Assembly: GCA_017309115.1 (NCBI GenBank)
Contig: JAFLEF010000021.1
Coordinates: forward strand, 46,807 to 110,806
From: Verrucomicrobiota bacterium
GTDB taxonomy: Bacteria > Verrucomicrobiota > Verrucomicrobiia > Limisphaerales > UBA9464
DNA: 64,000 bases
Direction: 5' to 3'
The first letter of the stretch is position 1. Each line of letters begins with the position of its first letter. The position numbers were made by a program, and so were the translations under genes. Under the pieces are notes generated by a model that saw only the letters and a program-made list of their open reading frames with translations, was not told the origin of the DNA and searched no databases. Positions 7,241-60,430 of the stretch are shown one piece after another.

Positions 7241-7270
7241 CTCTCAACCCTCAACTTTCAACTCTCAACT
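7241..7270. repeat. Heptad array type 1 (CTCTCAA), chromosomal copy
   Basis: About four units of CTCTCAA/CTTTCAA in the 223-base gap between the DUF772 gene and the LysM gene. This is outside the prophage and matches the arrays found repeatedly within it. Nothing else was recognised in this gap. Confidence 0.85.
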
Positions 7271-7381
7271 GGTTTGTGGGTAGGCCGGAGTGGGGTGAAT
7301 TTTGGGGAGAGTCACCCAAACGCTCCGATTCTCCGACAAACGCTTGCCGCTCTCGGCCGCGATTTCTAGTTTGCGCTCGCG

Positions 7382-7993
7382 ATGAAGCGACGTGTTGCGG
7401 TGGTCTCGGGTCTGTGTCTGGCGCTGTGGTGGCCGCTCCAGGGGCAGGTGGATGTCGAGGATGTCCGGCGGTTAAACGGCACAGTGGAGGCCTTGACCGA
7501 AGGGCAGGAAAGCATGCGCCGTCAACTTCAGGAGTTGCGGGAGGCAGTTGTCCAATTGCGCCAGGAAAACACCCAACTAAAGCAGCAGCTTCTGAATAGC
7601 GGGGAATTTGTCACCCGGGACCAACTCAAGGAACTGGTGAAGTCGATCCAGTTGGTCGACGAAAAGCGAGCCGCCGATGCCGACTTTGTGCGACGTCAGC
7701 TCGAGGATATCGCCCGGGACATCAACAAAACCTTGGCGGCCCCGCCGCCGGAGAAGGCCAAGCCGGCACCCCGTACTCCCACGGTTCCTCCAGAGGCCGT
7801 TGCCAACCTCCCGGACAAGCAATACGTCCACAAAGTGGGATCGGGCGAGACCTTGGGCGCCATCATAGCCGCCTACAACAAGGAGTACGGCCTGAAGGTC
7901 AAAGTGTCCGATGTCCTGGCCGCCAATCCCACCCTGAAGGATCCCAAGCGCATCCGGGTGGGGCAGGAACTCAATATTCCCGCGGTGAAATAA
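7382..7993 (+). CDS. Exported coiled-coil protein with C-terminal LysM domain
   Basis: 203 residues. A signal peptide (MKRRVAVVSGLCLALWWPLQGQ) is followed by a heptad-patterned coiled coil from about 28 to 120 rich in Leu, Gln and Glu, a Pro/Lys-rich linker (about 125-145), and a LysM domain from about 150 (YVHKVGSGETLGAIIAAYN to LNIPAVK). LysM binds N-acetylglucosamine-containing glycans, so it probably tethers to peptidoglycan in the periplasm. The architecture recalls YbgF/CpoB-like organisers, but there is no TPR domain. It stands alone on the plus strand. Confidence 0.75.
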   Translation: MKRRVAVVSGLCLALWWPLQGQVDVEDVRRLNGTVEALTEGQESMRRQLQELREAVVQLRQENTQLKQQLLNSGEFVTRDQLKELVKSIQLVDEKRAADADFVRRQLEDIARDINKTLAAPPPEKAKPAPRTPTVPPEAVANLPDKQYVHKVGSGETLGAIIAAYNKEYGLKVKVSDVLAANPTLKDPKRIRVGQELNIPAVK

Positions 7994-8020
7994 CGGACGG
8001 CGATCCCGCCGACGATTCGG

Positions 8021-8743
8021 TCAGAACATTCGCCGTTGGAGCACCCGGGTGCCGGCAATGAGATCGTGTAGGGCTCGCTTTTCAGGGTGAAAGGCGATCA
8101 TCACGTAGCCAGCTCCAAAAGTGAGTAGCGTGACCAGTTCCGCCAGATAGCGGGCAGCCGCCTGACCGTATCCAAGCTTTGTTCCATCTTCCCGGACAAC
8201 CCTCAGACCCAACAGCTGTTTGCCCGGGGTCGCTCCGCGGCGTCCGAGAAAAAAAGTGTTATACGCCAAAGCTAGAGGAAGACTGATAGCAAGGGAGATG
8301 AGGAAGAACCGCGCGAGCAGATCGTAGTCCGGCGAGGGCGACTGAAGTTCCGTCCGGGCCGCTTCCTGCAGCTTTCCCAGGGGTTCGGTCCACGGAAGGG
8401 TCAGCAGGGTCAAGAGGGCCTGAAGAATCACCCAATCGAGAATGTAGGCCCCCAACCGGATCCAGAAGCCCGCGGGGGCCGTGTCAGCGTTGGGGGCTGG
8501 GTTCGAAGCGGGGACGGTATCAGAGCGCAGTGGCGGTGGGGCAGGCGGGGCCGGCGTGAAGGTCGGCAAATCCCACTTGAGTTCGTCCCAGCCGCCCGCG
8601 GGCTGCCAGCGCTGTTCATCGCTGCGCCAGACTGGGGTGCCGGCGGCGACGCGGCCATCTTCACACCATTGCCTGATTTCCTCCAAAGTTACGGGTCCGT
8701 ATTCCCGTCCATCTCCGCCGATGATTTTGTATTCCGACGCCAT
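8021..8743 (-). CDS. GYF_2 domain-RDD family membrane protein
   Basis: 240 residues from the ATG at 8743, chosen because it immediately precedes the GYF_2 domain; a longer frame to 8782 exists. Residues ~2-50 are GYF_2 (GPVTLEEIRQWCEDGRVAAGTPVW, then WQP). A Pro/Ala linker leads to an RDD domain: GFWIRLGAYILDWVILQ, a second helix, then LGRRGATPGKQLLGLRVV and a final pair of helices. RDD proteins are integral membrane proteins of uncertain role; some affect ion or osmotic tolerance. GYF_2-RDD fusions are common in Verrucomicrobiota and Planctomycetota. A second GYF_2 domain occurs in the prophage (49849-50556). Confidence 0.85.
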   Translation of the reverse strand: MASEYKIIGGDGREYGPVTLEEIRQWCEDGRVAAGTPVWRSDEQRWQPAGGWDELKWDLPTFTPAPPAPPPLRSDTVPASNPAPNADTAPAGFWIRLGAYILDWVILQALLTLLTLPWTEPLGKLQEAARTELQSPSPDYDLLARFFLISLAISLPLALAYNTFFLGRRGATPGKQLLGLRVVREDGTKLGYGQAAARYLAELVTLLTFGAGYVMIAFHPEKRALHDLIAGTRVLQRRMF

Positions 8744-8835
8744 GAAGCGCGGGTGCATAGGCTCGAATGCCGACAATCGCAAACCAAAATCCCCTTGTCT
8801 TGAATCCTCCCGTTGCTAGCGTCCCCGCTCATTTT

Positions 8836-13868: not shown

Positions 13869-16454
13869 ATGAAGCTGCGCCTTCTTACCCTGATCGCCCT
13901 AATTCCCCTTTGGCTGCGTGCGGCGGACCCGGCGCCAAACACGCCTCCTCCGGCCCGAACCGAGGCGCGCTCGGAGAACTCGCTGGTGTTGTCCGCCAAG
14001 TACACCAATGCCCTCACGCTGGAGCCCAAAGAGGAATACGGTCAGGTCGCCAAGACCTTTGGTTGGGCACTGCAGCGCAGCCACTATTCCCGCAGCAAGT
14101 TTAACGACGAGATCTCAGGCAAGTTTTTTGACCGTTACTTGGAGGTGTTGGATCCCCAGAAGGTCTTTTTCCTGCAGTCGGATTACGACGAGTTCGCCCC
14201 TCTGCGTCTGGAGTTGGATGAGTTGACCATGCGCCACGGAAATACCCAGCCGGCCTATGATATCTTCAATCGCTTTCTGAAGCGCTTCGACCAGCAGTAC
14301 GCCTACGTCACCGAGTTCCTTCAGACCAATCAGTTCGTTTTCGAGACGGACGAGAAGTTCCAGTTGGATCGCAAGGAAGCGAATCGGCCCAAGGATTTGG
14401 AGGAAGCCCGCAAGCTCTGGCGGGATCGGGTGCGATCGGAGTACCTGGCGGAGAAGCTCACGGTGGGTGACCGCGAAGAGTTGCTCGGAAAATTCCGGAC
14501 CATCGGGAAATTCCAGTTCCAGACCAATCAGCCGGCGGATAACTGGGATCAATTGACCCGGTTCCTGACCAACAAGTTCAGCGCGGAGAAGGCGGCAGAA
14601 TTGACCCAGTTTGCCCGGACGGAACTGGAAGGCGCCCAAGCCAAGAACAGTGATACCAAGGTGGACGCGTTGGTGGACGGCGTTGTGGCCAAGGTGGACG
14701 CCCGGTTGGCTACCGATACCCACGGGGAAATCGTGAAGAAGTTGACCCGGCGTTACAACCGGACCATGCGGAACCTCAAGCAGTTTGAGTCCGACGAAGT
14801 CCTGCAGTTTTGGCTAAGTGCGTTGGGGCATGCCTACGACCCGCACACCGATTACTTCGGCAAGCGCGAGTTGGATTCCTTCTCGATCAACATGAACCTG
14901 TCGCTCTTCGGCATCGGAGCGACCCTGCAAAGTGATGACGGCTATACGGTGATTCGTTCCCTGGTGGCCGGGGCTCCGGCCGAAGTGAGTAAGCAGGTTA
15001 AGGTGGGCGACCGGATCATTGCGGTGGCCCAGGGCGATGGTGAATTTGTGGACGTTCAGGATGAAAAGCTGTCCAAAGTCGTGGACCAGATTCGCGGCCC
15101 CAAGGGCTCAAAGGTTCGCTTGGAGATCATTCCGGCGGGAGCCGATCTGTCGGTGCGAAAGATTGTCTCGCTCGTTCGGGATGAAGTGAAGCTGGAGGAC
15201 TCTGAAGCCAAGGCGAAGTTGATCGAGTTTTCCCAGGATGGCCGGACGAATCGGATTGGGGTCATCGATTTGCCGTCGTTCTACGCCAATTTCCCGGTAG
15301 CCGGCCGCCGTGGTTCTGGCAAGACCACCACGGGTGACGTTTCGAAGCTGCTCAAGAAACTGCTGGAGGAAGGAGCCGAAGGCATCGTGCTCGACCTGCG
15401 TCGAAACGGGGGCGGCTCGCTTGAGGAGGCCATCAACCTGACCGGACTCTTCATCAAGTCGGGTCCGGTGGTGCAGGTGCGGAATCCGGATGGTCGGGTG
15501 AATGTGGATACTTCCCCGGAGGAGAACCCCGCCTACGAGGGGCCGTTGGTGGTCCTCACCTCGCGGTTCAGTGCTAGTGCCAGTGAGATCTTGGCGGGCG
15601 CCTTGCAGGACCATGACCGCGCGGTGATCGTGGGCGACAATTCCACGCACGGCAAAGGCACCGTACAGACCGTTCAAGAGTTGGGGTCATTCCTGGCCGA
15701 TCAGCGGGATGTCGGCGCGGCCAAGGTAACGATTCGCAAGTTCTACCGGCCAAGCGGGTCGAGCACCCAACTCAAAGGGGTGGTTCCCGACATCATTTTG
15801 CCCAGTGTTGAGAACTACATGGATGTCGGTGAGTCCTCCCTCGAGAACGCCCTGCCGTGGGACACGATTGATTCCTCAAAGTACAGCAAGGATGGCGAGA
15901 TCAGCCGCCTGGTGGCCGATCTAAACCGGCGCTCAAGCGACCGGATCGCGAAAGACCCGGATTTTGATTATGTCCGGGAGGACGTCGAGCGGTACCGCAA
16001 GGCCAAGGCCGACAAGACCGTGTCCCTTAACGAAACGGCTCGACGGACGGAGATTGCAGAAAACAAGGCGCGCATGGAGGCCCGCAAGAAGGAGCAACTG
16101 GCCCGTAAGGATACCCAGCCCACCACGTGGGAGATCACCCTGAAATTGGTGGATCAACCTGGCCTTCCTCCTGCCATGACGAATCTGTGGGCGAACTCGG
16201 TTCAGGTTCCGCTGATTTCCGCTTCGGTCCCGACCAATGGAGTTTCGGTCAACGTGAACGCGGCCCCTCCGGTCAATTCCACCGCAGGGACCGACCCGGT
16301 TGCGGATCCGCATGGGCTGGATGCCGATGACGAGTTTGGCGACGAAGGTCCCGCCCGGCCGCCGCGTGACCCGCATCTGCGCGAAGCCGAGCGCATCTTG
16401 CTCGATCTACTTCGCCTGAATCCCCGTAAAGGGATGTCGGCAAGTCGCGAATAG
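13869..16454 (+). CDS. prc: Carboxy-terminal processing (tail-specific) protease, S41A
   Basis: 861 residues. A Sec signal peptide (MKLRLLTLIALIPLWLRAAD) precedes the tail-specific protease N-terminal helical domain (about 55-330). A PDZ domain follows (about 345-430; GIGATLQSDDGYTVIRSLVAGAPAEVS). The S41 core has GIVLDLRRNGGGSL, VLTSRFSASASEILAGAL with the catalytic Ser near residue 569, and THGKGTVQ with the catalytic Lys near 596. A Prc-type C-terminal domain with a Lys/Glu-rich helix ends the protein. It degrades or trims periplasmic proteins at their C-termini. It converges on apbE with only 11 bases between stops. Confidence 0.95.
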   Translation: MKLRLLTLIALIPLWLRAADPAPNTPPPARTEARSENSLVLSAKYTNALTLEPKEEYGQVAKTFGWALQRSHYSRSKFNDEISGKFFDRYLEVLDPQKVFFLQSDYDEFAPLRLELDELTMRHGNTQPAYDIFNRFLKRFDQQYAYVTEFLQTNQFVFETDEKFQLDRKEANRPKDLEEARKLWRDRVRSEYLAEKLTVGDREELLGKFRTIGKFQFQTNQPADNWDQLTRFLTNKFSAEKAAELTQFARTELEGAQAKNSDTKVDALVDGVVAKVDARLATDTHGEIVKKLTRRYNRTMRNLKQFESDEVLQFWLSALGHAYDPHTDYFGKRELDSFSINMNLSLFGIGATLQSDDGYTVIRSLVAGAPAEVSKQVKVGDRIIAVAQGDGEFVDVQDEKLSKVVDQIRGPKGSKVRLEIIPAGADLSVRKIVSLVRDEVKLEDSEAKAKLIEFSQDGRTNRIGVIDLPSFYANFPVAGRRGSGKTTTGDVSKLLKKLLEEGAEGIVLDLRRNGGGSLEEAINLTGLFIKSGPVVQVRNPDGRVNVDTSPEENPAYEGPLVVLTSRFSASASEILAGALQDHDRAVIVGDNSTHGKGTVQTVQELGSFLADQRDVGAAKVTIRKFYRPSGSSTQLKGVVPDIILPSVENYMDVGESSLENALPWDTIDSSKYSKDGEISRLVADLNRRSSDRIAKDPDFDYVREDVERYRKAKADKTVSLNETARRTEIAENKARMEARKKEQLARKDTQPTTWEITLKLVDQPGLPPAMTNLWANSVQVPLISASVPTNGVSVNVNAAPPVNSTAGTDPVADPHGLDADDEFGDEGPARPPRDPHLREAERILLDLLRLNPRKGMSASRE

Positions 16455-25708: not shown

Positions 25709-25741
25709 TAGTTGAAAGTTGAAAGTTGAGAGTTGAGAGAC
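25709..25741. repeat. Heptad array type 1
   Basis: About four TTGAAAG/TTGAGAG units (plus strand) between the starts of the 1201-residue gene and the stop of the gene before it. On the coding (minus) strand it reads in the open CTCTCAA direction. Confidence 0.85.
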
Positions 25742-25752: not shown

Positions 25753-26136
25753 TCAGCCGGCGAGGACGGCGATGCGGGCGCCGGCGCCGATGGCTTTGAC
25801 GTAGATGGTGGTGCCGAGTTTGGGAGTCCAAAGGGCCACGTCGTTCTGCTTGGTCAGCACGGCAAAGCGGTAGGTGTCGAAGTCGGGGCTGTTCTTCAGC
25901 GAGACTTCCACGTTGGTGCCGCTGGTCGGGGTGATCAACTTCAGGAGGATCTTGCCGCAGGGCAATTCCACGTCGCCCAGGACCAGGGCCTCGCTCGTGT
26001 CGGCCGTGAGGTCCTGGGTCTGGCTGAGGCCGTCGCCGTCGGAGCTGTCCAGCGTGAACGTGATGTCGCCAGAGGTGGGGGTGAAGCCGACTTTGTTGAG
26101 GGCCAATCGGACCGTTCCAGTGAGTTCGCCTGCCAT
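25753..26136 (-). CDS. Phage structural protein of unknown function, 127 aa
   Basis: 127 residues, mostly beta-strand pattern, no signal peptide (MAGELTGTVRLALNKVGFTP). It ends with alternating hydrophobic residues (GTTIYVKAIGAGARIAVLAG). It lies in the distal tail block between the 70-residue protein and the large tail protein, with a heptad array on each side. No family recognised; a small tail-tip or collar component is the most natural reading. Confidence 0.55.
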   Translation of the reverse strand: MAGELTGTVRLALNKVGFTPTSGDITFTLDSSDGDGLSQTQDLTADTSEALVLGDVELPCGKILLKLITPTSGTNVEVSLKNSPDFDTYRFAVLTKQNDVALWTPKLGTTIYVKAIGAGARIAVLAG

Positions 26137-26147: not shown

Positions 26148-26178
26148 AGTTGAGAGTTGAAGGTTATGAGTTGAGAGG
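26148..26178. repeat. Heptad array type 1, degenerate
   Basis: TTGAGAG units with one unit decayed to TTATGAG, between the 127-residue and 70-residue genes. Confidence 0.8.
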
Positions 26179-26179: not shown

Positions 26180-26392
26180 TCAGCCCCAGCGGGGGATCGT
26201 CGTTTCCTGCGTGGGCTTGGTGGTGATGTTGACGGAGGCCCCGTCGGGCTGGATGAGAGTGCCGCGGGCGGTCTGGGAGACGAGGGCGCCGGGAACGCGA
26301 CCGGTGATTGAGCGGCTCACAACCGTCTGCAGCTCGCGGATGGCGCGGGGGTATTTTCCGTTACCGGTCACAGCAGTGAAATTGGGGACCAT
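26180..26392 (-). CDS. Small phage tail-region protein, 70 aa
   Basis: 70 residues starting MVPNFTAVTGNGKYPRAIR with a basic middle and no membrane segment. It is flanked by heptad arrays and keeps the orientation of the tail genes. Nothing recognisable. A gene is supported by length, by start placement right after the upstream array, and by the absence of other coding frames here. Confidence 0.45.
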   Translation of the reverse strand: MVPNFTAVTGNGKYPRAIRELQTVVSRSITGRVPGALVSQTARGTLIQPDGASVNITTKPTQETTIPRWG

Positions 26393-26394
26393 CG

Positions 26395-26422
26395 GAGTTG
26401 AGAGTTGAGAGTTGAAAGACTC
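26395..26422. repeat. Heptad array type 1
   Basis: Four TTGAGAG/TTGAAAG units between the 280-residue gene stop (26421) and the 70-residue gene start; the array just touches the stop codon of the former. Confidence 0.85.
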
Positions 26423-29009: not shown

Positions 29010-29040
29010 AAGTTGAGAGCTGAGAGCTGAGAGCTGAGAG
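29010..29040. repeat. Heptad array type 2 between tail genes
   Basis: One TTGAGAG and three CTGAGAG units, next to a GAAAGC..GCTTTC dyad at 28994-29009, in the gap upstream of the chaperone-like gene. Confidence 0.85.
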
Positions 29041-30599: not shown

Positions 30600-30700
30600 G
30601 GGTAAGGGGTAAGGGGCAAGCGGTAAGGGGTAAACGCATCCCGCCTGCTCGACTGCTTCGAGCGCTGCTGTTTTCTTACCGCTTGCCGCTTGCCGCTTAG
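30600..30700. repeat. Inverted pair of type 3 heptad arrays
   Basis: GGGGTAA/GGGGCAA/GCGGTAA units at 30600-30634 face TTACCGC/TTGCCGC units at 30674-30700 across a ~40-base spacer, so the transcript could fold into a long hairpin. The left edge of the right arm contains the TAA stop of the next gene. A near copy with a similar spacer lies at 43782-43871. Confidence 0.85.
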
Positions 30701-35407: not shown

Positions 35408-35484
35408 GGGACGCACGAGATGCGGCTGCGCGGAGCGTCGCCCTACCGGTTTTACCTCTCAGCTCTCAGCTCTCAGCTCTCAGC
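35408..35484. repeat. REP-like segment plus heptad array type 2 in reversed orientation
   Basis: A GC-rich segment (35408-35455, CACGAGATGCGGCTGCGC..) is followed by four CTCTCAG units (35456-35484). This array is the only type 2 copy whose stop-containing strand runs with the late genes. It sits 4 bases after the stop of the cytochrome gene and before late motif D. Confidence 0.75.
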
Positions 35485-35488
35485 TTCC

Positions 35489-40546: not shown

Positions 40547-41043
40547 AGGCCTTTCAGATTGCTGCGGGTAAATTGGCGGGTCTCGGTGGTGAGGTTCTGC
40601 ACACCGGGGCCGGCGGGGGTCATGCTTTGCTCGCTCTCGGGATCGTCGGGGGCGGTCACGGCGAGTTCACCTTTGGCCACCATGTCGAGGTCCTTCTCCA
40701 GCTGGGTGAGGCGGGTGCGCTGGTCTTCGGTGAGGGCGAGCGAATCGGATCCGCCTTGGCCGCCGAGGCCGGAGGTGGGGCCGAGGCGTCCGAGGATCTG
40801 GACGAGGATGCGCAGGGCGGCGAGTTCTAGGAACTCGGGCGGGATGCGGGCGGGATCGTCGTCGAGGGCGTTCGTCCCGCGGGCGCTGGCCTTGGCGCGG
40901 ATCTGGGCGACGACGGTGTCGCGGATGACGCCGAACCAGCGGTCGCTTTCGAGCGAGTCATCGGCGGCCCACGCGGTTTCGAGGCGTTCGTTGCGGGCGA
41001 AGGCGAGGACGTCGCTGAGTTCTACGTTTTTCCAGGCGGCCAC
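40543..41043 (-). CDS. Head-completion-like protein (DUF1320/gp36 position)
   Basis: 166 residues starting MAAWKNVELSDVLAFARNERLETAW, mostly helical: DTVVAQIRAKASARGTN, RIPPEFLELAALRILVQILGRLG, LTEDQRTRLTQLEKDLDMVAKGEL. Mu-like phages carry a helical gp36/DUF1320 connector directly after the capsid gene, and this matches in place, size and pattern. It overlaps the fibre gene by 4 bases. It lies behind the capsid terminator, so it needs read-through or its own promoter. Confidence 0.6.
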   Translation of the reverse strand: MAAWKNVELSDVLAFARNERLETAWAADDSLESDRWFGVIRDTVVAQIRAKASARGTNALDDDPARIPPEFLELAALRILVQILGRLGPTSGLGGQGGSDSLALTEDQRTRLTQLEKDLDMVAKGELAVTAPDDPESEQSMTPAGPGVQNLTTETRQFTRSNLKGL

Positions 41044-41048: not shown

Positions 41049-41078
41049 AGTTGAGAGTTGAAAGTTGAGAGTTGAGAG
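41049..41078. repeat. Heptad array type 1
   Basis: Four TTGAGAG/TTGAAAG units between the capsid terminator and the head-completion-like gene. Confidence 0.85.
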
Positions 41079-42172: not shown

Positions 42173-42535
42173 TTACGCGCCTTTCTCAATACGAGCGCAC
42201 TCGATGAGATTGTTGTCGGCCGCGGCCGCTTCGAGGGCGACCAGGTTGATCGCCGTGGTGCCGGTATCGTCCACTTCGCCGGCGGCGGTGGGATACAGCT
42301 GGGCGCCCGCCGCGATGGGGGCACTGGCGCGACAGATGAAGGTACCGGGCGCGGACCAGAGCTTGACGGTGACGACGCCACCGGAGGCGGCATCATGGAT
42401 CGCGACGCCGATCGCGGCGTCGGTGGCCGCTGCGATGTCGGCCTGGCCCGAAGAGATCTTGATGCGCTGGCCCTGGGAGATGGCCGCCGCCGTGACGAGG
42501 CCCTTGAAGCCCATGCTGTTTTCGGTCGTGTTCAT
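42173..42535 (-). CDS. DUF2190-type capsid decoration protein
   Basis: 120 residues: GLVTAAAISQGQRIKISSGQADIAAATDAAIGVAIHDAASGGVVTVKLWSAPGTFICRASAPIAAGAQLYPTAAGEV. This beta-rich pattern with G-V-A and a late LYP is characteristic of DUF2190 decoration or head-fibre proteins, which stabilise the capsid at the threefold axes. It sits between protease/scaffold and capsid, the usual place. Confidence 0.75.
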   Translation of the reverse strand: MNTTENSMGFKGLVTAAAISQGQRIKISSGQADIAAATDAAIGVAIHDAASGGVVTVKLWSAPGTFICRASAPIAAGAQLYPTAAGEVDDTGTTAINLVALEAAAADNNLIECARIEKGA

Positions 42536-42540: not shown

Positions 42541-42572
42541 GAGTTGAGAGTTCGAAGTTGAGAGTTGAGAGA
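42541..42572. repeat. Heptad array type 1
   Basis: Four units with one decayed (TTCGAAG) between the decoration gene and the protease/scaffold stop. Confidence 0.85.
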
Positions 42573-43781: not shown

Positions 43782-43871
43782 AAGGGGTAAGCGGTAAGCG
43801 GTAAGGGGTAAACGCGCTACCCCTGCTCGCCTGCTGGCCGTTCGCTTACCGCTTGCCGCTTCCCGCTTACC
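43782..43871. repeat. Inverted pair of type 3 heptad arrays
   Basis: GGGGTAA/GCGGTAA units at 43782-43812 face TTACCGC/TTGCCGC/TTCCCGC units at 43843-43871 across a ~30-base spacer. The portal stop TAA is the first unit of the array read leftwards. Architecture and spacer (TGCTCGCCTGCTGG-like) match 30600-30700. Confidence 0.85.
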
Positions 43872-45444
43872 GTTTCCCCGTGAACCCTTGCGCCATGGCA
43901 GTGCCGAGGGCGCCTTCGACGGCGCGGACTAGGGCTGCGTCGGCGCGGGCGGTGCGGCGGAGCCAGTCGGGGATTTCGCGCCGGAAGATTTCCAGGGCGC
44001 GGGCTTGGGCTTCGGGATCTTCGATCTGGGCGATGTTCTCCAAGCGGGCGCGGACGGGGGTGAGCACGCCGGCGAGTTGCTCGGCCACGTCGTCGAGGGC
44101 GGCGGCGGTGAACTGACGGGCGGATTCGTTGGCCAGGTCGGCGGCGCCCGGGGCGGCGTTGGGATCCTGCTGCGCCGGATCTGCGGCGGGCTTGCTGGGC
44201 GGTTGCAGGAGTTCGTCGTCGTCGTCGGGCGCGGGGCGTCCGTAGCGCTCGCGGGCGTCGTCCACGCTGAGGGGCACGCCAGCGGCGAGGAAGAATTGAT
44301 CGACCAGCAGTTCCTTGGTGGCGTCGATGCGCTTGGGCGGAGTGATCTGGACGTAGGCCAACGGGGTGACGCCTTCGCCGAAGAGGTACTCGATCACCTG
44401 CGGGTCGATGCGGGTGTTGAGGATGTCGGAGACGAATTGGGCGTCGTCGGATTCCAGCAGATTGGACTCGGCACCCTGGAGGCTGGCGCCGGATCCGTCG
44501 CCTTGGCCGGCAGACATGGTGCTGAGATCGGCTCCGCGCCAGAGGGCGGAAATCCAGCGGTCGCAGAATTCCACCAGGCCGGGCTGGGGTCCGCTGGATC
44601 CGCCGCCGGCGCCGGCGGCTTGGACCAGCTCGACCATGGCGTCGGTGTTCATTACGGCGCCACCGTCGGAGATCAAGTTCTTCACCACTTCGGTCAGGGC
44701 GATCCATTCGGGGCTGCCTTGGGCGGCGGACGTTTTGCCGATGACGAAGGGCAGTCCGAACTTTTCGGAGAACATGGCCCAGTCTTGCAGGCCCAGCTGC
44801 TGGAGGCAGACGAGCACGGCGGTGGCGCGCATGAGGCCATCGCCCACCGAGACCAGCCATTCGTTGCGGGGCATTTCGTCGCCGGTCGTGGCGATGGCGT
44901 TGGGCCGCCAGCGGAGGCGCCCGGTCTCATTCTCGAAACACTCCAGGGGCCAGAGGGTGAACAACGCGGAGAACGGCCGATCGCCCACGGGCGGGCGCCA
45001 GGTGATCTCGTGAACGCTGAACCGCATTCCCTGGGCGTCGAGGATCTGCTGGGCGAGCAGACGGAATCCCCCGCCCTGGTCGCGATCCAGGAGGCTGGTG
45101 GCTTCGACGTGATTGTAGAACTGGGAGAGCGCTTCCTGGTGGGCCTTGGCTTCCTCCTTCTTTTCGTCGGGGATGTCGGAGCGGGTCAGGACGGTCCAGG
45201 GCATTCGGCCGAGGGCCTTCTCGCGTTTGCGGGCGACGGAGGCGACGGAGTAGTTGCGGTCCTTGAGCTTTCGCCAGAGGCGCGGGGCGTTGGTGAACCG
45301 GCCGCGTTCGAACTCGTCGAGCGAGGAGGCGAGACGCTCGGGATCGAGGGCGCTGCTGGACGGCAGGCGCTGCTGGATGAGCTGCTTGACCTGCTGGGCA
45401 TCGACCCGCTGGGTGACTTCGACGGTGGGGGATTCGGGCGTCAT
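43867..45444 (-). CDS. Mu gp29-like portal protein (DUF935)
   Basis: 525 residues, the DUF935 length. Blocks: LWRKLKDRNYSVASVARKREKALGRMPWTVL, AQQILDAQGMRFSVHEITWRP, then LMRATAVLVCLQQLGLQDWAMFSEKFGLPFVIGKTSA, LISDGGAVMNTDAMVELVQAAGAGGGSSG, FCDRWISALWRGADLSTMSAGQGDGSGASLQGAES. All are typical of Mu gp29-like portals. The portal ring is the DNA gate and terminase dock. The C-terminal ~130 residues are acidic then helical. Its TAA stop is contributed by a heptad unit. Confidence 0.88.
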   Translation of the reverse strand: MTPESPTVEVTQRVDAQQVKQLIQQRLPSSSALDPERLASSLDEFERGRFTNAPRLWRKLKDRNYSVASVARKREKALGRMPWTVLTRSDIPDEKKEEAKAHQEALSQFYNHVEATSLLDRDQGGGFRLLAQQILDAQGMRFSVHEITWRPPVGDRPFSALFTLWPLECFENETGRLRWRPNAIATTGDEMPRNEWLVSVGDGLMRATAVLVCLQQLGLQDWAMFSEKFGLPFVIGKTSAAQGSPEWIALTEVVKNLISDGGAVMNTDAMVELVQAAGAGGGSSGPQPGLVEFCDRWISALWRGADLSTMSAGQGDGSGASLQGAESNLLESDDAQFVSDILNTRIDPQVIEYLFGEGVTPLAYVQITPPKRIDATKELLVDQFFLAAGVPLSVDDARERYGRPAPDDDDELLQPPSKPAADPAQQDPNAAPGAADLANESARQFTAAALDDVAEQLAGVLTPVRARLENIAQIEDPEAQARALEIFRREIPDWLRRTARADAALVRAVEGALGTAMAQGFTGKR

Positions 45445-45666
<222 letters not shown>

Positions 45667-47166: not shown

Positions 47167-47768
47167 GCCATCCCAAACACGGCGCGGATCTTCGCGGCCT
47201 TGTCTTCGGGGGTGAGGGTGTCGTCGTTGACGACCTTCTCGGCTTTCTCAGCCTGCTCGGCTTTGCGCTGGAGGATGGCCAGCTTGGCTTCGTCGATCGC
47301 GAGGCTGCGTTCGTCTTGCTGGACCTTCATCGCAGCCAACGCGGTGCGCACGAGGTCGGGCAGCTGCTCGATCTGCTGGGGGAGCTCACCCCTGACGCTG
47401 ACCTGGACGATCAGTCGCTCGATGAGTTTCACCAACACGCCGACTTGGGTGGGTGCTTCGGCGGCGAGGGCCTCAACCTGCTTGGCGACGCGGGCGCCGT
47501 TGGCGACATCGGCAAAGAGTTTTGCTTCGAGGTCGGCTTGCTGCTGCTGCTCCCACCATTCGCTGAGGCGGGCGAGGCTGACGCTGACGCCGGCGGCCGC
47601 GAGGCGCTTGCGGGCTTCCTCCAAGGTGACCTTCTCCGCGCCGAACCAGCGGCGGAGATCGTCGGCGTAGGAGTCGAGTTTGGAGGGGCGGGATTTCAAG
47701 TTGAGAGTTGAAAGTTGAGAGTTGAGAGACTCAGACCTCGCTATCCAACGCGGCTTGTTGTTCGGCAC
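47163..47768 (-). CDS. Mu gp27-like protein (DUF3486, small terminase position)
   Basis: Up to 201 residues. The DUF3486 core starts near SRPSKLDSYADDLRRWFGAEKVTLEEARKRLAAAGVSVSLARLSEWWEQQQQ and continues with helices to KAAKIRAVFGMA. The first ~25 residues from the GTG at 47768 include a translated type 1 array (SLNSQLSTLNLKS) and overlap the upstream 63-residue gene. A TTG at about 47700, just after the array, may be the real start. It probably recognises pac DNA as the small terminase partner. Confidence 0.78.
   Translation of the reverse strand: MPNNKPRWIARSESLNSQLSTLNLKSRPSKLDSYADDLRRWFGAEKVTLEEARKRLAAAGVSVSLARLSEWWEQQQQADLEAKLFADVANGARVAKQVEALAAEAPTQVGVLVKLIERLIVQVSVRGELPQQIEQLPDLVRTALAAMKVQQDERSLAIDEAKLAILQRKAEQAEKAEKVVNDDTLTPEDKAAKIRAVFGMA
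47699..47728. repeat. Heptad array type 1 at the gp27-like N-terminus
   Basis: Four TTGAGAG/TTGAAAG units (plus strand), open and in frame with the gp27-like gene. Confidence 0.88.
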
Positions 47769-49076: not shown

Positions 49077-49757
49077 TCACGGGGCGATTCCCTTCGTGCC
49101 GAGGAGCGCGGCGAGCTTCAGGAGGATTTCGAGTTGCTCGGTAATGTTCGTTGAGGTGGTCGACTGGTACAGCGCTCCGAGGCTCGCAGACTGGGACTTG
49201 TCCGTTTGCATGGCCTTGGAGTTCGCCAGCTGACTGTCGCTGTCCCAGAACGTTCTCACCCGCACCTCGGTCTCGATGGTGCGCTCAGGGCTGACGTCGC
49301 GCTGGGTGGTCGTGTAGGTGGCGCAGCCGGTCAGCAGCAGAAGCAAGCTGAGAGCTGAGAGCTGAGAGCTGAGCGACCGAGTCTGCCGGGCGCGGACGGC
49401 GGCGCGGACGGTGTCGATCTTGATGGACGCGACCATGTCGAGGAGCCAGCCGAAGGCGGAGAACAGAGGGTGCGCCTCGACCTTGGTGAGGAATTGGTCG
49501 TCGGTCTGGGACGGGGTGGACCGGACAAACATCCACAGCAGGGCCATGCCCGGCTTGAAGACGATCCGAAGCGAGCCCATGAGGGCCAACGCGGCCAGCA
49601 CCCAGGGATACTGGACGGCCAGGTTGATCACGTGAGCCGTGAGCGGGTCGACGGGATCGGACGGGGTGACGATGAGATCAGGCGGGACCTGACCGACCGC
49701 CGGGACCAGGCAGAGACACCAGGCGAAGAGTAGTCCGAGGAGTTGGGCGCGATTCAT
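49077..49757 (-). CDS. Lysis-region membrane protein with internal lipoprotein-like segment
   Basis: 226 residues, nine bases after late motif B. The N-terminus is a signal or anchor (MNRAQLLGLLFAWCLCLVPAVGQ). A further membrane helix is at about 48-75 (VLAALALMGSLRIVFKPGMALLWMFV). Residues ~126-148 hold a translated type 2 array running straight into LLLLLTGCATYTTTQ, a perfect lipobox context. This looks like a membrane protein joined to an Rz1-like lipoprotein through the repeat. An internal non-ATG start in the array could also release the lipoprotein alone. Holin/spanin functions are plausible but unproven. Confidence 0.55.
   Translation of the reverse strand: MNRAQLLGLLFAWCLCLVPAVGQVPPDLIVTPSDPVDPLTAHVINLAVQYPWVLAALALMGSLRIVFKPGMALLWMFVRSTPSQTDDQFLTKVEAHPLFSAFGWLLDMVASIKIDTVRAAVRARQTRSLSSQLSALSLLLLLTGCATYTTTQRDVSPERTIETEVRVRTFWDSDSQLANSKAMQTDKSQSASLGALYQSTTSTNITEQLEILLKLAALLGTKGIAP
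49345..49375. repeat. Heptad array type 2 forming a lipoprotein signal core
   Basis: Four CTGAGAG units, in frame as SLSSQLSALS just before the LLLLLTGC lipobox. Confidence 0.9.
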
Positions 49758-49814: not shown

Positions 49815-49844
49815 GGTTGAGAGTTGAAAGTTGAGAGTTGAGAG
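49815..49844. repeat. Heptad array type 1
   Basis: Four TTGAGAG/TTGAAAG units between the GYF_2 fusion stop (49849) and late motif B. Confidence 0.88.
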
Positions 49845-53199: not shown

Positions 53200-53210
53200 G
53201 GCCGTCGCGA

Positions 53211-53239
53211 GCTGATAGCTGAGAGCTGAGAGTTGAGAG
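53211..53239. repeat. Heptad array type 2/1 mixed
   Basis: CTGATAG, CTGAGAG, CTGAGAG, TTGAGAG units with the stop strand on the coding side, just upstream of the 271-residue gene; the final GAGAGG may serve as its ribosome site. Confidence 0.85.
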
Positions 53240-54086: not shown

Positions 54087-56189
54087 ATGACCGCTCCTCT
54101 CCAACTCACCTCGTCGGTGCAGATCGACCCTCGGGTGATCCAATCGCTGAGCCGGACTGCTGCCACACAGCTGCTGTTGATCGCGGAGGAGTTGCCCCGC
54201 CTGCTCGCCGCACCGTCGATGCGGGCCGCGTGCAACCGGGCGGCGCAGGGTATCCCCGGCGTGACCGGACGCGCCTTGTACAATCGGGTGCGTCGGTTCG
54301 CGCGGACGCATGATCCGCTCGACCTGGTGGACCGGCGGGACAGTTCCAAATTGTGGACCGCCACGGTGCGTCCGGTCGGGCTGCCGGCGGCGTTCCGGGA
54401 ATTCTACCGGGGACTGCGGGAGAAGCATCAGCGAGTGGCCACCATGGCCCACGCGGAGTTGATCGAGATCTGGCGATCGCACTACGACGTTTCCGGGAAG
54501 TATTACGACAAGATCCCAGGCTACGATCGCTGGCCGGAAGCGAGCCCGACCACCGGGATGCCGGTGGGGTGGTCCTACGATTCGCTCCAGCGCTCGGTGC
54601 CGGAACATCCGTGGGACACGGCGGCCGCCCGCCAGGGCCTGGCGGCGGCGAGTGGGTATCGGCCGCCGGTGCGGACGACTCGGGTGGGACTGCGGATCGG
54701 GGAGCGGGTGGAGTTCGACGATCACCAGTTCGATACGAAGGTTCACTTTGCAGGGCAATCGCGGGCGATGCGACCGGTGTGTTTCGGTGGGGTAGACGGG
54801 TTGTCATCGTTCGTGTCGCTCGCGGTTCGCCCGACGTTGTGGGATGATGCGGCGGAACAGAAACGGACGCTCACGGAGTTTCAGTTTCGCTGCTTCGTGC
54901 TGTGGTGGCTCTCGGAGCACGGCTACCGCAATGACGAAGCAGGAACCACGCTCTTCACGGAGCGCGGGACGGCGGTGATCCGGGCGGACTTTGAGGCTCG
55001 GCTGCGGGCCTTCACGGGCGGACGGGTGCGGGTGAGCGCGGGCTCGATGTTCTCGGAGTCGGCTCACCCGGGACAGTACGCGCCCAGGGGCAAGGGTAAC
55101 TTTCGCCACAAGGCGGCGATCGAAGGGTTTTGGAGCATCCTGGAAAACGTGCTGGATCGGCTGCCGGGCCGGATGGGGTCCAATCAACGGTTGAATGGGC
55201 CGGCTGAGCTACACGGGCGGGAGATGGTGCTGGCGAAGACCCTCGATCTCGCGCGGACGTTGCCGCCGGCGCTGGCGGAGCAACTGATGTTTCCGGTGCT
55301 GCCGTTCGGCACCTTCTCGAAGCTGACTTACGCGGCGCTGGATGCGGTGCTGGCGGATCAGGACCACGACCTGGAAGGCTGGGAGGACTTGGGCTTCGTG
55401 CGGATGGAATGGCGATCGGACGCGGGGTCGCACTTGTGGTTGCCGCAGCAGGCGCTCACCCAGTTGCCGGACGCGGAGCGGATGGCACTGGCGTCGCGGA
55501 TCTCCTCGGAGGAGGGGCTGACGCGGTGCGTGCGGCTTTCGCGGCGGGACGTGTGGGAGAGCCACAAGGGGCAGCTGACGCAGCTGGCGCCCTCGGCGCT
55601 GTGTCGCCTGATGGATCCGGAGGACGCGATCGAGGTGACGGTGACGCGGCAATCGCTGGTGGAGTTTCAGGACACGGCGCGCTTCGGGCCGGGGACGTTC
55701 CGGTTTCTGGCGCAGAGCCGCCAACGTGAACTGCACCCGGGCGACAAGTTTGCGGCGTTCTTCAATCCGCTCACGCCCCGCTGGCTCCAGCTGGTGGACA
55801 GCAAGGGCGCGCCGGTGGCGCTGCTGGAGTCCTGGGAGGCGCCCAGCCGAAACGATCTCGACGGGATCAAGCGGCAGATGGGCAAGCAAGCGGCCTGGGA
55901 AGCGGATCGCAAAGTCCGGCTGGCGGGTCGGCACTTCGACGAAGCCGAACAGCGGGCGCACCTGGCGGAGCACAATCGACTCGTCGCCGAGGCGGCGGGT
56001 AAGGGGCAAGGGGTAAGGGGTAAGGAAGCGGAGGCGCTGGCGCGGCGGGCGGCGGAGGTGGGGCGGGCGATGTTGCCCGCGGAGGACGTGGAGGTCGCGG
56101 AGGTGATCGACGAACGGATCACGATGGAGCGCCAGGCCGAAGAGACTTTGGAGCCGGATGAGGTAATCCAGCTGAGAGCTGAGAGCTGA
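54087..56189 (+). CDS. MuA-like DDE transposase
   Basis: 700 residues. N-terminal helical DNA-binding part to ~200. Catalytic core: VGLRIGERVEFDDHQFDTKVHF (first Asp near 211), FTERGTAVIRADFEARL (where many DDE enzymes have Asp there is Glu), and GNFRHKAAIEGFWSILENVLDRLPGRMG with the third acidic residue. A Mu-transposase C-terminal beta domain follows, then a basic/acidic tail. Residues ~638-646 (KGQGVRGK) are a type 3 array (55998-56026) in frame, with CAA in place of the TAA that would stop this frame. The last residues QLRAES and the TGA come from a type 2 array. It integrates and replicates the phage with MuB. Confidence 0.9.
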   Translation: MTAPLQLTSSVQIDPRVIQSLSRTAATQLLLIAEELPRLLAAPSMRAACNRAAQGIPGVTGRALYNRVRRFARTHDPLDLVDRRDSSKLWTATVRPVGLPAAFREFYRGLREKHQRVATMAHAELIEIWRSHYDVSGKYYDKIPGYDRWPEASPTTGMPVGWSYDSLQRSVPEHPWDTAAARQGLAAASGYRPPVRTTRVGLRIGERVEFDDHQFDTKVHFAGQSRAMRPVCFGGVDGLSSFVSLAVRPTLWDDAAEQKRTLTEFQFRCFVLWWLSEHGYRNDEAGTTLFTERGTAVIRADFEARLRAFTGGRVRVSAGSMFSESAHPGQYAPRGKGNFRHKAAIEGFWSILENVLDRLPGRMGSNQRLNGPAELHGREMVLAKTLDLARTLPPALAEQLMFPVLPFGTFSKLTYAALDAVLADQDHDLEGWEDLGFVRMEWRSDAGSHLWLPQQALTQLPDAERMALASRISSEEGLTRCVRLSRRDVWESHKGQLTQLAPSALCRLMDPEDAIEVTVTRQSLVEFQDTARFGPGTFRFLAQSRQRELHPGDKFAAFFNPLTPRWLQLVDSKGAPVALLESWEAPSRNDLDGIKRQMGKQAAWEADRKVRLAGRHFDEAEQRAHLAEHNRLVAEAAGKGQGVRGKEAEALARRAAEVGRAMLPAEDVEVAEVIDERITMERQAEETLEPDEVIQLRAES
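55998..56026. repeat. Heptad array type 3 inside the transposase gene
   Basis: Units GGGTAAG, GGGCAAG, GGGTAAG, GGGTAAG; the second carries C for T exactly where the reading frame would meet TAA. Confidence 0.9.
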
Positions 56190-56199
56190 GAGCTGAGAG
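56169..56199. repeat. Heptad array type 2 ending the transposase gene
   Basis: Four CTGAGAG units on the coding strand; the TGA of the third supplies the transposase stop, and the array ends 12 bases before the MuB-like start. Confidence 0.92.
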
Positions 56200-57705: not shown

Positions 57706-57968
57706 ATACGCCCAGCCCCGACAGAAATGTCGAAGCGGTCCGGAACCTCCTGTTGGTTCGGTCCCAAGTCGGGCTCCAAAAGTACGGAGTCACCACCGAG
57801 CGCACGGATCTGGTGAGGCTTGATTGGTTGCGCCATGCGCAAGCCGAAGCGCTCGACTTCGCAGTGTATCTGCAACGGCTGATCTGCGACGAACTCGAAG
57901 CGGCCCAGAACACCAACCCGACCGTGGTCAACGGGCAGATCATTTTCGAGGTGGAGGGGGAACTGTGA
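57702..57968 (+). CDS. Small helical phage protein (KYG motif), 88 aa
   Basis: 88 residues: RNLLLVRSQVGLQKYGVTTERTDLVRLDWLRHAQAEALDFAVYLQRLICDELEAAQ. The VGLQKYG..T..R.DL....WL.HA..EALD..VYL pattern recurs in many phage proteins with a MazG-like helical build, possibly a sister NTP-PPase-fold protein. It overlaps both neighbours (ATGA, GTGA). Confidence 0.6.
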   Translation: MNTPSPDRNVEAVRNLLLVRSQVGLQKYGVTTERTDLVRLDWLRHAQAEALDFAVYLQRLICDELEAAQNTNPTVVNGQIIFEVEGEL

Positions 57969-58180
57969 CTGCCACACTTGCCCAGATCCGGGAATTGCAG
58001 GGGCTCGTGGCCAAGGCCAACGCCGCCCTCACTCCCCTGGCCGCCGACGGCGAAGGCCGGGATTGCCACGGGGGAACCATCCGGAATCCGGATGTCAACG
58101 CCGATTCACCCACCACCCCTGCCGTCCAGGCGGCCCTGATCTGCGTAAACGCCCTCAAGGGCGCAGCGGAGGAGCAGTAA
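57965..58180 (+). CDS. Small early phage protein, 71 aa
   Basis: 71 residues from a GTG at 57965 whose GTGA overlaps the preceding stop: TLAQIRELQGLVAKANAALTPLAADGEGRDCHGGTIRNPDVNADSPTTPAVQAALICVNALKG. Helical, no motif. Coupling to the preceding gene is the main support. Confidence 0.5.
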   Translation: MTATLAQIRELQGLVAKANAALTPLAADGEGRDCHGGTIRNPDVNADSPTTPAVQAALICVNALKGAAEEQ

Positions 58181-58211
58181 TCTTACCTCTTACCCCTTAC
58201 CCCTTACCCGC
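58181..58211. repeat. Heptad array type 3
   Basis: TTACCTC/TTACCCC units in open orientation filling the gap to the next GTG start. Confidence 0.88.
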
Positions 58212-58212
58212 T

Positions 58213-58500: not shown

Positions 58501-58615
58501 CACATGACACTACTCGACGAAGCGCCCCGGTTGATCGCCTGGGCCAAACTCAACGGACTGATGGGAGAAGTCGCGGCTTCCCGTCGGCCGCACTCCGGCA
58601 CCGAATCACCTGACG

Positions 58616-58849: not shown

Positions 58850-58892
58850 GCCCTCCCCCTTCCCACACGAACACGACTACGACCTGAATCCT

Positions 58893-59198
58893 ATGAATGC
58901 GACTCAATCGGATACCTTGCCGCAGCGTAAAGAACGCTGCGCGCTGGAGATGGAAAACCAGATCCTCGGTGAGGAACTGCTGAAGGCCCGCGCGGAACAT
59001 GCGGGTATGCGAGCCATGATCTTTGGGCTCTATGTGGCTGTGTTCTTCCTCGGCGTCACCCATACGACCAAGTGGGTTCTGTGGACCGTCGCGATCGCCT
59101 TTATGGTGTTTGCCGCTCTGATGCTCATCGGCGGCGTGTGCTGGGCTGCCAAACGCGGCGACGAAGCCATGGGCATCGGCGACTCCCAGGGGCGCTGA
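58893..59198 (+). CDS. Early membrane protein, 101 aa
   Basis: 101 residues from the ATG at 58893 (a GTG at 58839 would add 18). A charged N-terminal helix (KERCALEMENQILGEELLKARAEHAGMRAM) leads into two membrane helices (IFGLYVAVFFLGVTH and VLWTVAIAFMVFAALMLIGGVCWA). No family recognised. Its place in the early operon suggests superinfection exclusion or membrane association of replication. Confidence 0.55.
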   Translation: MNATQSDTLPQRKERCALEMENQILGEELLKARAEHAGMRAMIFGLYVAVFFLGVTHTTKWVLWTVAIAFMVFAALMLIGGVCWAAKRGDEAMGIGDSQGR

Positions 59199-59202
59199 TC
59201 CG

Positions 59203-59234
59203 GTCTCTCAACTCTCAACTTTCAACTCTCAACT
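59203..59234. repeat. Heptad array type 1
   Basis: Four CTCTCAA/CTTTCAA units in open orientation just before the Gam-like start. Confidence 0.9.
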
Positions 59235-59243
59235 TCTTCCCCC

Positions 59244-60398
59244 ATGTCCCGAATCAAACTTCCCGACCCCTACGCCACGATCGAAACCAAAGCCCAAGCC
59301 GAGATCGTGCTGGGCGACATTCGCGAGCTCTCCATTCGCAAGGCCCGGCTGCTGGCCGACCGCGAGGAGGAACGTCAGCGGATCGAAGAATCCTGCAAGG
59401 AGGCCTTGGCCATCCTGGACGACGAGATCAACACCAAGAGCGAGGCGCTGCGCACTTGGGCGGAATTGAACCCGGAGGAATTTGGCAAACGGCGATCGCT
59501 GGAACTGACCCACGGCACGGTGGGCTGGCGGATCGGCATGCCGAAGCTGGTGAAGAAGTGCAAAGCGAAGTGGGATGATCTCGTCGGAGTCGTCGATGCT
59601 CGCTTGGGATCAGCCTTCATCCGAGTGAAGAAGGAGGTCAACCGCGAGGCCATCCTCGACGCCCGGGACACGCTGGATCCGGTGCAGGTGAAGGCCTGCG
59701 GGCTGGCGATCGAGCAGGGCGACGCCTTCTACGTCGAGCCGAAGATGGACCAGGTGGAGACGCGGACGGTCGTGGACACGGTGACGAAGTTGGCGGCGTT
59801 GTTCGTCTTCCTCCTCGGCGCGGTGTTCGGCCAAGCCGCCAACGTGGGACTCACCTGGGATCCGAACACGGAGGCCGATCTGGGCGGGTACCGGGTGTAC
59901 TACGGGCCGGCGAGCCGGAGCTACACCAACGTGGTGAACGTGGGCCGGACCAACGTCGCCCGGGTGACGGGCCTGCTGGATGGCGCGGCGTACTTCTTTG
60001 CCGTGACCGCGTACAACACGAACGGCCTGGAGAGCGACTACTCGAACGAGGTGCGGATCCAGACCGGCACGCGTCCGGCGGCGCCCGGCGGATTGGGCGG
60101 CAGCCAGGAGCGGGACGTGGTGCAGATCCAGTGGCGCGGCAAGACCAACAGCAACGGCACGATCACGCCGGTGGGCCAGGTGCTGGTGGCCGCGAATCTC
60201 CTGCCGGCCACGGTGGCGGCGACCATCGTGACGACTCCATCGGACGGCACGCTGACGACTCAGAATCGCACGGTCACCACGACCAACGGGCTGGCGGAGA
60301 TCGTGGGCAAATCCTTGCGCCCTCCCTTTGGCGCCTGGGTGGGCGTGAAGACGGTGACAATCCCCAGCGGGGAGATCTCCTCGGTCGTCTTCAACTGA
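59244..60398 (+). CDS. Gam-like host-nuclease inhibitor fused to a secreted FN3 domain
   Basis: 384 residues. Residues 1-165 match Mu Gam: a long coiled coil (AEIVLGDIRELSIRKARLLADREEERQRIEESCKEAL), HGTVGWRIGMPKLVKK, and FIRVKKEVNREAILDARDTL with CGLAIEQGDAFYVEP. Gam binds DNA ends like Ku. Residues ~178-199 form a membrane/signal segment (VTKLAALFVFLLGAVFGQAAN). An FN3 domain follows (about 199-275, LTWDPNTEADLGGYRVYYGPASRSYTNVVNVG to YSNEVRIQTG) and a beta tail. A cytoplasmic DNA-binder fused to an exported domain is paradoxical. Met168 (59745) could start a separate secreted FN3 protein in the same frame. Confidence 0.78.
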   Translation: MSRIKLPDPYATIETKAQAEIVLGDIRELSIRKARLLADREEERQRIEESCKEALAILDDEINTKSEALRTWAELNPEEFGKRRSLELTHGTVGWRIGMPKLVKKCKAKWDDLVGVVDARLGSAFIRVKKEVNREAILDARDTLDPVQVKACGLAIEQGDAFYVEPKMDQVETRTVVDTVTKLAALFVFLLGAVFGQAANVGLTWDPNTEADLGGYRVYYGPASRSYTNVVNVGRTNVARVTGLLDGAAYFFAVTAYNTNGLESDYSNEVRIQTGTRPAAPGGLGGSQERDVVQIQWRGKTNSNGTITPVGQVLVAANLLPATVAATIVTTPSDGTLTTQNRTVTTTNGLAEIVGKSLRPPFGAWVGVKTVTIPSGEISSVVFN

Positions 60399-60430
60399 GT
60401 CTCTCAACTTTCAACTTTCAACTCTCAACT
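60399..60430. repeat. Heptad array type 1
   Basis: Four CTCTCAA/CTTTCAA units filling the gap between the Gam fusion and the DnaA-like gene. Confidence 0.9.

Follow-up and report, generated by a model that had tools for sequence, protein, structure and literature searches.

Heptad arrays along a Mu-like prophage

The stretch of DNA analysed here, which we refer to as the window, comprises 64,000 nucleotides of a Verrucomicrobiota bacterium (assembly GCA_017309115.1, contig JAFLEF010000021.1, positions 46,807 to 110,806), and our subject is the tandem heptanucleotide arrays that it carries. A sequence-only reading had described about 25 such arrays, of three types, between positions 7241 and 60430, each open in all frames on one strand and stopped in all frames on the other. 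Our scans bore out the arrays and their types: a lenient scan found 29 places matching the three consensus arrays, 28 of them at 25.7 to 60.4 kb, and a generic period scan found 26 period-7 runs, as against none in each of 20 windows simulated with a first-order Markov model. Runs of the other periods from 4 to 13 numbered 0 or 1 each, and there were 16 of period 14, the double of 7. Type 1 consists of four CTCTCAA units plus CT (30 nt), the third unit often being CTTTCAA; type 2 consists of four CTCTCAG units plus CT (30 nt); and type 3 consists of four units of CTTACC followed by C, G or T (28 nt), with numerous variants. The heptapeptides derived from them (LSTLNSQ, LSALSSQ and LTPYPLP) are arithmetically correct. 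The types had also been called unrelated in sequence, which does not hold for types 1 and 2: their heptads are one base apart and are mixed within single arrays (e.g., 53210-53239), so that the independent families number about two. No Rfam family reached its gathering score in a scan of the window.

The array-dense part of the window is a Mu-like prophage, a point the earlier reading had overlooked. Based on PHROG and Pfam matches, it runs from about 22 kb to the contig end, with leftward genes for the tape measure, major head, head protease, portal and terminase proteins and rightward genes for a Mu-type transposase, a DNA transposition protein and Gam. As had been claimed, most window arrays lie at gene junctions. 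The prophage and the 29 places of the lenient scan, with their neighbours as called, are as follows.

22099-63790, no strand: Mu-like (transposable) prophage with 28 of the 29 arrays, from PHROG and Pfam matches; left limit approximate, and the window stops at the contig end
7241-7270, plus strand: type 1 array of four units, the sole window array outside the prophage
25710-25739, minus strand: type 1 array of four units, between a stop and a called GTG start
26148-26177, minus strand: degenerate type 1 array, 11 nt before the ATG of 25753-26136
26389-26418, minus strand: type 1 array with three clear units, between two genes, a called ATG following 3 nt on
28850-28879, minus strand: type 2 array of four units, in the called N-terminal part of 28396-28983
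29011-29040, minus strand: intergenic type 2 array whose final unit is type 1
30600-30627, minus strand: type 3 array, predicted hairpin partner of 30675-30702
30675-30702, plus strand: antisense type 3 array containing the stop codon of 30697-31527
35272-35301, minus strand: type 2 array of four units, in frame close to the called start of 31791-35369
35320-35349, minus strand: type 2 array of four units, likewise in frame close to the called start of 31791-35369
35456-35485, plus strand: antisense type 2 array, 3 nt past the stop of 35489-37441, with a core like a repetitive extragenic palindrome (REP) on its inner side
37405-37434, minus strand: type 2 array, translated if 35489-37441 uses its first ATG (MRSLSSQLSALSLLLFPAAALA); one gene call has a later start
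40448-40477, minus strand: type 2 array, in frame at the N-terminus of 38621-40540 provided that translation begins at the ATG at 40540; one call starts later
40493-40522, minus strand: type 2 array, in frame at the N-terminus of 38621-40540 (MFRRLYLSALSSQLSALLGLFLSALSSQLSA)
41049-41078, minus strand: type 1 array, third unit CTTTCAA, before the called GTG of 40543-41043
42542-42571, minus strand: degenerate type 1 array, 6 nt before the ATG of 42173-42535
43785-43812, minus strand: type 3 array, predicted hairpin partner of 43845-43872
43845-43872, plus strand: antisense type 3 array containing the stop codon of the portal gene 43867-45444
45622-45651, minus strand: type 1 array of four perfect units, past the terminase gene
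47699-47728, minus strand: intergenic type 1 array, third unit CTTTCAA
48176-48203, minus strand: type 3 array
49346-49375, minus strand: type 2 array within what may be a lipoprotein leader, read from the ATG at 49436: LSSQLSALSLLLLLTGCA
49815-49844, minus strand: type 1 array, third unit CTTTCAA
53210-53239, minus strand: array mixing type 2 and type 1 units, antisense to the rightward genes and 10 nt past a called stop
55997-56024, minus strand: type 3 array, antisense within the 3' part of the transposase gene
56170-56199, minus strand: antisense type 2 array containing the stop codon of the Mu-type transposase gene 54087-56189
58182-58209, plus strand: type 3 array, 1 nt past the stop of 57965-58180
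59205-59234, plus strand: type 1 array, third unit CTTTCAA, 9 nt before the ATG of the Gam gene 59244-60398
60401-60430, plus strand: type 1 array right behind the Gam gene stop, the next ATG following 6 nt on

The prophage arrays occupy gaps between co-directional genes, and 20 of the 26 in our stricter catalogue have their open strand as the sense strand; two further degenerate type 1 arrays, seen in the lenient scan only, are both sense. Three prophage genes, including those of the transposase and the portal protein, terminate on array stop codons. Two inverted type 3 pairs give stable predicted hairpins (z -3.5 and -3.0), inverted repeats folding by construction. The sequence-only reading had also missed that some type 2 arrays probably lie inside coding sequence: they fall in the N-termini of 35489-37441, 38621-40540 and 31791-35369 when these are read from upstream in-frame starts, and a further one falls in the possible leader starting at 49436. 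Read in this way, the products of four prophage genes may include an array-encoded stretch near the N-terminus, where the leaders resemble signal peptides by eye; for 35489-37441 and 38621-40540 one gene call starts downstream of the arrays.

Spread through the genome and placement at gene edges

Arrays were catalogued in a sample made up of the window and 1.16 Mb of further stretches, together 1.22 Mb of the 7.53 Mb draft genome; the further stretches were picked partly for listed arrays, so that densities are biased. The sample holds 220 arrays (47 of type 1, 85 of type 2 and 88 of type 3), 26 of them in the prophage and 194 elsewhere, the latter referred to below as host arrays. Outside the window, the sample has 143 period-7 arrays of any sequence, and no other period from 4 to 12 exceeds 6.

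The three heptads are nearly absent from relatives. The type 2 pattern, with 262 matches in this genome (overlaps in long arrays counted), had two matches in the congener G002, three, all in one place, in the relative G047, and none in the other 56 of the 58 relatives, and the type 3 pattern had 438 matches here and none in 38 relatives. In other Verrucomicrobiota, the ten stretches that surround the nearest terminases contained no array of types 1-3, yet nine other heptad arrays; they are too diverged for a base-level comparison of empty sites and show the absence of arrays only. Other heptads do occur in some relatives, e.g., GCCATTC, with 22 matches in G017 and 45 in G047, and in G047 period 7 is the commonest period (46 arrays versus at most 14 for any other). 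A partial survey of 616 kb of relatives not selected for heptads gave 14 period-7, 8 period-8 and 7 period-9 arrays, and the 269 kb of family and order members within it gave 5 period-7 versus 6 period-8 arrays, i.e., no excess. Separately, we observed long arrays of several other heptads in G047 (stretches L235, L246, L248 and L250), some exceeding 100 bp and some within called genes, and AATTACG arrays in both orientations near the terminase gene in a Mu-relative stretch of G163 (L202, 1794-1979 and 2508-2542).

Many arrays adjoin a palindromic core, GGTRGGGCGASGCTCYGC, its palindromy read by eye, which resembles REP elements and whose pattern had 505 matches here versus 39 in 38 relatives together. 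Among the 238 core matches in the sample (at most two mismatches), an array lies within 60 nt on the 5' (GTRG) side in 89 cases and on the other side in 4. Seen from the host arrays, a core stands on the inner side in the standard polarity in 39/74 of type 2, 26/81 of type 3 and 9/39 of type 1.

Outside the prophage, 176 of the 194 arrays are intergenic, 17 overlap the 3' end of a gene, all in antisense, and one lies within a called gene. When array and gene edge were paired wherever they were no more than 50 nt apart or slightly overlapping, the purine strand ran away from the gene in 76 host pairs and towards it in 3, pairs that share one gap not being independent. Antisense intergenic arrays facing a stop were within 10 nt of it in 30/75 cases, against 3.7/84 for arrays placed and turned at random in the same gap, and none of the 94 sense intergenic arrays lay within 10 nt past a stop. 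On both sides of a gap the outermost arrays usually read into it; array-free gaps have a median length of 50 nt if convergent and 59 nt if tandem. In all, 19 sampled genes end on a stop codon inside an array (16 outside and 3 inside the prophage), and these, together with the sense-strand bias in the prophage, uphold the earlier claim that placement relative to genes is non-random. Both the placement and the spread of the arrays are real.

One possibility is that the arrays are functional RNA elements, (CUCUCAA)4 just before a start serving as a non-Shine-Dalgarno element or protein-binding site and the purine form past stops acting in the 3' untranslated region through termination, decay or a hairpin with an inverted partner. 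Type 1 arrays of the prophage, viral contigs and host taken together lie 3-15 nt before the ATG of an open reading frame (ORF) of at least 60 codons in 12/72 cases in sense versus 1/72 in antisense (sense by source: prophage 3/8, viral contigs 5/25, host 4/39), these ORFs being unverified as genes, and a like start-proximal layout has been published for the TAACTGA repeats of Beggiatoaceae (MacGregor 2015, PMC4679880). Words resembling the Shine-Dalgarno sequence precede none of the six array-preceded prophage genes versus 14 of the 38 prophage genes without arrays, and both the exact four-unit length of the prophage type 2 arrays and the hairpins of the inverted type 3 pairs would suit such a role, though folding is expected there by construction. 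However, the start-proximal pattern is confined to type 1, with 0/74 for host type 2, 0/81 for host type 3 and 0/11 for prophage type 2 (and 0/15 for permuted control heptads), and among the 81 host arrays that precede a gene in sense, only 2 come within 10 nt of its called start. Unit number, type and distance all vary, moreover, and arrays are absent at homologous gene ends in relatives. We regard a role as RNA elements as unlikely.

Given that 28 of the 29 window arrays lie in the Mu-like prophage, the arrays might also belong to Mu-like phages that seeded the chromosome. In IMG/VR the type 1 pattern (two spellings allowed) occurred in 19 stretches from 18 contigs, the type 2 pattern in 2 and the type 3 pattern (16 spellings) in 6; three of the type 1 matches have CTTTCAA as their third unit (L296, L303 and L309), and one type 1-bearing contig (L306) encodes a relative of the Mu-type transposase. 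Permuted control heptads, however, were also present in viral contigs, in 4 and 9 stretches, which reduces the type 1 excess to some two- to five-fold, and we claim no strong excess. A further control, with the reversed pattern, is not independent for type 1, since that repeat is also contained in the reversed word. Against a phage source stand also the ten terminase stretches free of types 1-3 and the 194 of 220 sampled arrays outside the prophage, and we consider it extremely improbable. As a separate observation, four viral stretches (L293, L295, L307 and L310) have the type 1 heptad in frame inside proteins that are coiled-coil-like by eye, giving QLSTLNSQL.

Probable block copying and proposed tolerance of insertions

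Unit number differs between the types and locations. Four-unit arrays make up 36/47 of type 1, and while all 11 prophage type 2 arrays have exactly four units, only 25/74 of those elsewhere do (p = 3e-5), three being the commonest number in host type 2 (38/74); the range is 3-7 units for host type 2 and 3-17 for host type 3. In type 1, 14 arrays on eight sampled contig pieces have the 28-mer CTCTCAACTCTCAACTTTCAACTCTCAA in common, and across the 36 four-unit arrays the variant CTTTCAA stands at unit 3 in 20, at unit 2 in 8, at unit 4 in 1 and at unit 1 in none. Because this internal variant is shared at the same unit in unlinked places, it points to type 1 blocks of about 30 bp having been copied whole.

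The variable unit numbers of host types 2 and 3 would fit local microsatellites formed by in-place polymerase slippage, with period 7 favoured by the polymerase, a proposal of Mrazek as related in PMC4679880, where most genomes are said to have heptads as their most abundant long repeat unit and 7 nt is taken as possibly reflecting polymerase contact. The prevalence of period 7 in G047 would fit as well. Whole-block copying is called for, however, by the type 1 variant and by the sharp 30-bp ends and fixed order with the REP-like cores, and the period-7 excess in relatives not selected for heptads is modest (14 versus 8 and 7). As a general account slippage is very unlikely in our judgement, and for type 1 the shared variant at the same unit rules it out.

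Two loci bear on how arrays came to stand at gene ends. For a gene ending at C2:20240, with an array at C2:20250, the homologues in four congeners (G001, G002, G003 and G004) stop at the corresponding residue, and for a gene ending at C30:23678, with an array at C30:23688, so do the homologues in G003 and G004 and a paralogue in the same genome, one more homologue running off its contig. No array of types 1-3 was present anywhere in the fetched stretches holding these homologues. Since the homologues end at the same place without an array, the array at these two loci appears to stand behind a native stop that it did not itself supply.

We favour, with moderate confidence, a lineage-specific, dispersing heptad-repeat family that is filtered by selection at gene edges. 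Dispersed heptanucleotide simple-sequence repeats would have increased in number within a single verrucomicrobial lineage. At least type 1 would have spread in complete blocks of some four units (30 bp) and not by slippage at each site, presumably with the help of a copying enzyme. Host arrays adjoining the 5' (GTRG) side of REP-like elements probably move, or stay, with them. Insertions would survive, perhaps neutrally, where harm is small, that is, just past a native stop, at some distance before a start and at tight operon junctions of the prophage. A few prophage genes may also tolerate them in their N-terminal leaders because the pyrimidine strand is stop-free and 30 bp keeps the frame. 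Shine-Dalgarno-like words precede 24% of 795 host genes versus 21% in shuffles, which is near chance, so that an array beside a start need not break a ribosome site. The open/stop asymmetry would influence where an insertion is tolerated and was probably not itself selected.

Several results weigh against this explanation. The catalogue rests on our own gene caller, whose start positions are soft, and the random-place control uses present-day gaps that contain the inserted repeats, by which the near-stop excess is overstated. In the prophage the edge measure gave 12 pairs away and 12 towards, partly because gaps there are so short that both neighbours count, and the four-unit uniformity of the prophage type 2 arrays, which includes arrays outside coding sequence, is not predicted by neutral insertion. 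The native stops are seen at two loci whose downstream neighbours are unmatched, by homology and not established orthology, and do not amount to base-level empty sites; target-site duplications, looked for by eye only, were not seen. With respect to the REP-like cores, an inner-side core is missing from 35/74 host type 2, 53/81 type 3 and 29/39 type 1 arrays, and an outer-side core is present at 10 type 2, 7 type 3 and 6 type 1 host arrays. Among the 26 prophage arrays a REP-like partner accompanies only 1, so that bare arrays must spread by another route, and all five Y1_Tnp matches lack a REP-like core in the surrounding 1.5 kb or so, which leaves no candidate for a mobilising enzyme.

The open/stop asymmetry and known repeats

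According to the sequence-only reading, the open/stop property was shared by all families and selected, either for frame-neutral safe insertion near genes or for frame-independent translation barriers. A stop in every frame of the reverse strand did hold for types 1 and 2 (46/47 and 83/85 arrays in the sample) and failed as a rule for type 3 (45/88), in which 128/388 heptads have no stop on either strand. Such an asymmetry is common among heptamers: 37% of all 16,384 combine an open strand with a stopped one, or 24% when weighted to 63% GC, and so do 47-67% of the base permutations of the heptads in question. Nor are non-conforming heptamers depleted, since they are common in type 3 and arrays open on both strands are frequent in relatives. 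In G047, the 46 period-7 arrays divide into 27 open on both strands, 18 asymmetric and 1 stopped on both, and in G017 all 6 of 6 are open on both; the stretches of both genomes were selected for GCCATTC, itself an open-both heptad, and without the 11 GCCATTC arrays G047 still has 16/35 open on both strands and 18/35 asymmetric. In the 616 kb of relatives not selected for heptads, 8/14 arrays were asymmetric, 5/14 open on both strands and 1/14 stopped on both; this share is somewhat above the random one and mildly favours the earlier idea, and we do not read it as significant because several arrays share one locus or heptad. The asymmetry is thus neither common to all heptad families nor rare enough to need selection.

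Selection of this kind would also account for purine strands downstream of stops, for the 19 genes ending on an array stop and for a sense strand that is open and possibly translated in several prophage genes. Yet at gene 3' ends the type 3 arrays without three-frame stops have the same polarity (8 away, 1 towards) as those with them (13 and 0), and an equal polarity is described for the GGGAATC repeat of Xanthomonas (PMC4692102), a unit that we checked and found to have no stop on either strand. With the homologues' stops being apparently native at two loci as well, we consider selection for the frame property highly improbable, and the asymmetry is probably a by-product and not a selected design.

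As for known systems, the short tandemly repeated repetitive (STRR) sequences of filamentous cyanobacteria are heptanucleotide repeats, tandem heptamers scattered between genes. Our arrays are likewise tandem heptamers, mostly between genes, and differ in phylum and sequence. A further likeness is to the GGGAATC and GGGGA(T/C)T repeats of Xanthomonas and Nostoc, which also have a seven-base unit; for GGGAATC, a preference for four units and gene-edge placement have been reported, the four units being linked to quadruplexes (Rehm et al. 2015, PMC4692102). Their layout, near a stop on the coding strand or before ORFs on the non-coding strand, recurs here in 76/79 pairs outside the prophage and 12/24 inside. 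Our purine strands TTGAGAG (type 1) and CTGAGAG (type 2), by contrast, are without GG, G-runs occurring only in some type 3 arrays (GGGTAAG) by direct reading, so that types 1 and 2 lack the canonical G-runs of the quadruplex proposal for Xanthomonas as that source presents it. Moreover, many of our arrays stand beside REP-like cores and some in a prophage, whereas the Xanthomonas and Nostoc repeats are reported in the same source as generally not found with mobile elements.

The TAACTGA repeats of Beggiatoaceae, Cyanobacteria and Bacteroidetes have stops in all frames on one strand with the other open, a property discussed as limiting repeat location; they lie mostly just before start codons and are scattered among lineages (PMC4679880). 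The asymmetry is alike, several prophage type 1 arrays are likewise start-proximal and the lineages are scattered in both cases, but the units differ (CTCTCAA, CTCTCAG and CTTACCN), host arrays favour gene 3' ends, and the REP-like partner has no counterpart in the available part of that account. REPs of the GTAG kind are reported to supply a TAG stop to flanking ORFs and to be enriched in the verrucomicrobium O. terrae (PMC3733652), and the cores here open with a G followed by GTAG or GTGG and are often located past stop codons. Unlike REPs and REPINs, the heptad arrays themselves are not palindromes, nor is a Y1 transposase found beside a REP-like core at the five matches (about 1.5 kb). Some repeats of 6-9 bp are reported to be enriched in prokaryotic phyla (PMC12699852). 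Our literature search on heptad repeats in Planctomycetes, Verrucomicrobia or phage genomes returned nothing relevant, most subscription papers being outside the search.

The phenomenon is real and largely ordinary in kind, that is, dispersed heptad repeats near genes. What is unusual is the link to a REP-like core, the load of a Mu-like prophage, and the appearance of an already known polarity in arrays that lack G-runs or, for part of type 3, three-frame stops. That this gene-edge polarity is seen with units free of G-runs, and also with arrays free of three-frame stops, suggests that its cause is neither of the two but some common, testable rule of insertion or retention. As a wider speculation, which we think unlikely to hold, heptad arrays might constitute a general class of bacterial mobile sequence defined by a period of 7 nt and a block of about four units and not by base sequence, which would be inserted or kept with a fixed gene polarity independently of G-quadruplexes and stops, carried by phages and beside REP-like elements, and able to become translated leaders, with the Xanthomonas, Beggiatoaceae and verrucomicrobial repeats being independent sequence states of one mechanism. 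In the window, tandem repeats have entered a prophage and may in places have turned into N-terminal leader peptides.

With respect to the prophage proteins, no second copy of the transposase was found in the genome and the major head protein had no relative in the four congeners searched; searches of viral contigs with the portal and Gam proteins gave one and two weak relatives, respectively. The Gam-like protein (59244-60398) has a C-terminal fibronectin type III domain, residues 201 on being the part that matches two viral contigs. The protease (13869-16454) matches three proteins of Verrucomicrobiales or Verrucomicrobia metagenome-assembled genomes with 75, 73 and 68% identity in the best segments.

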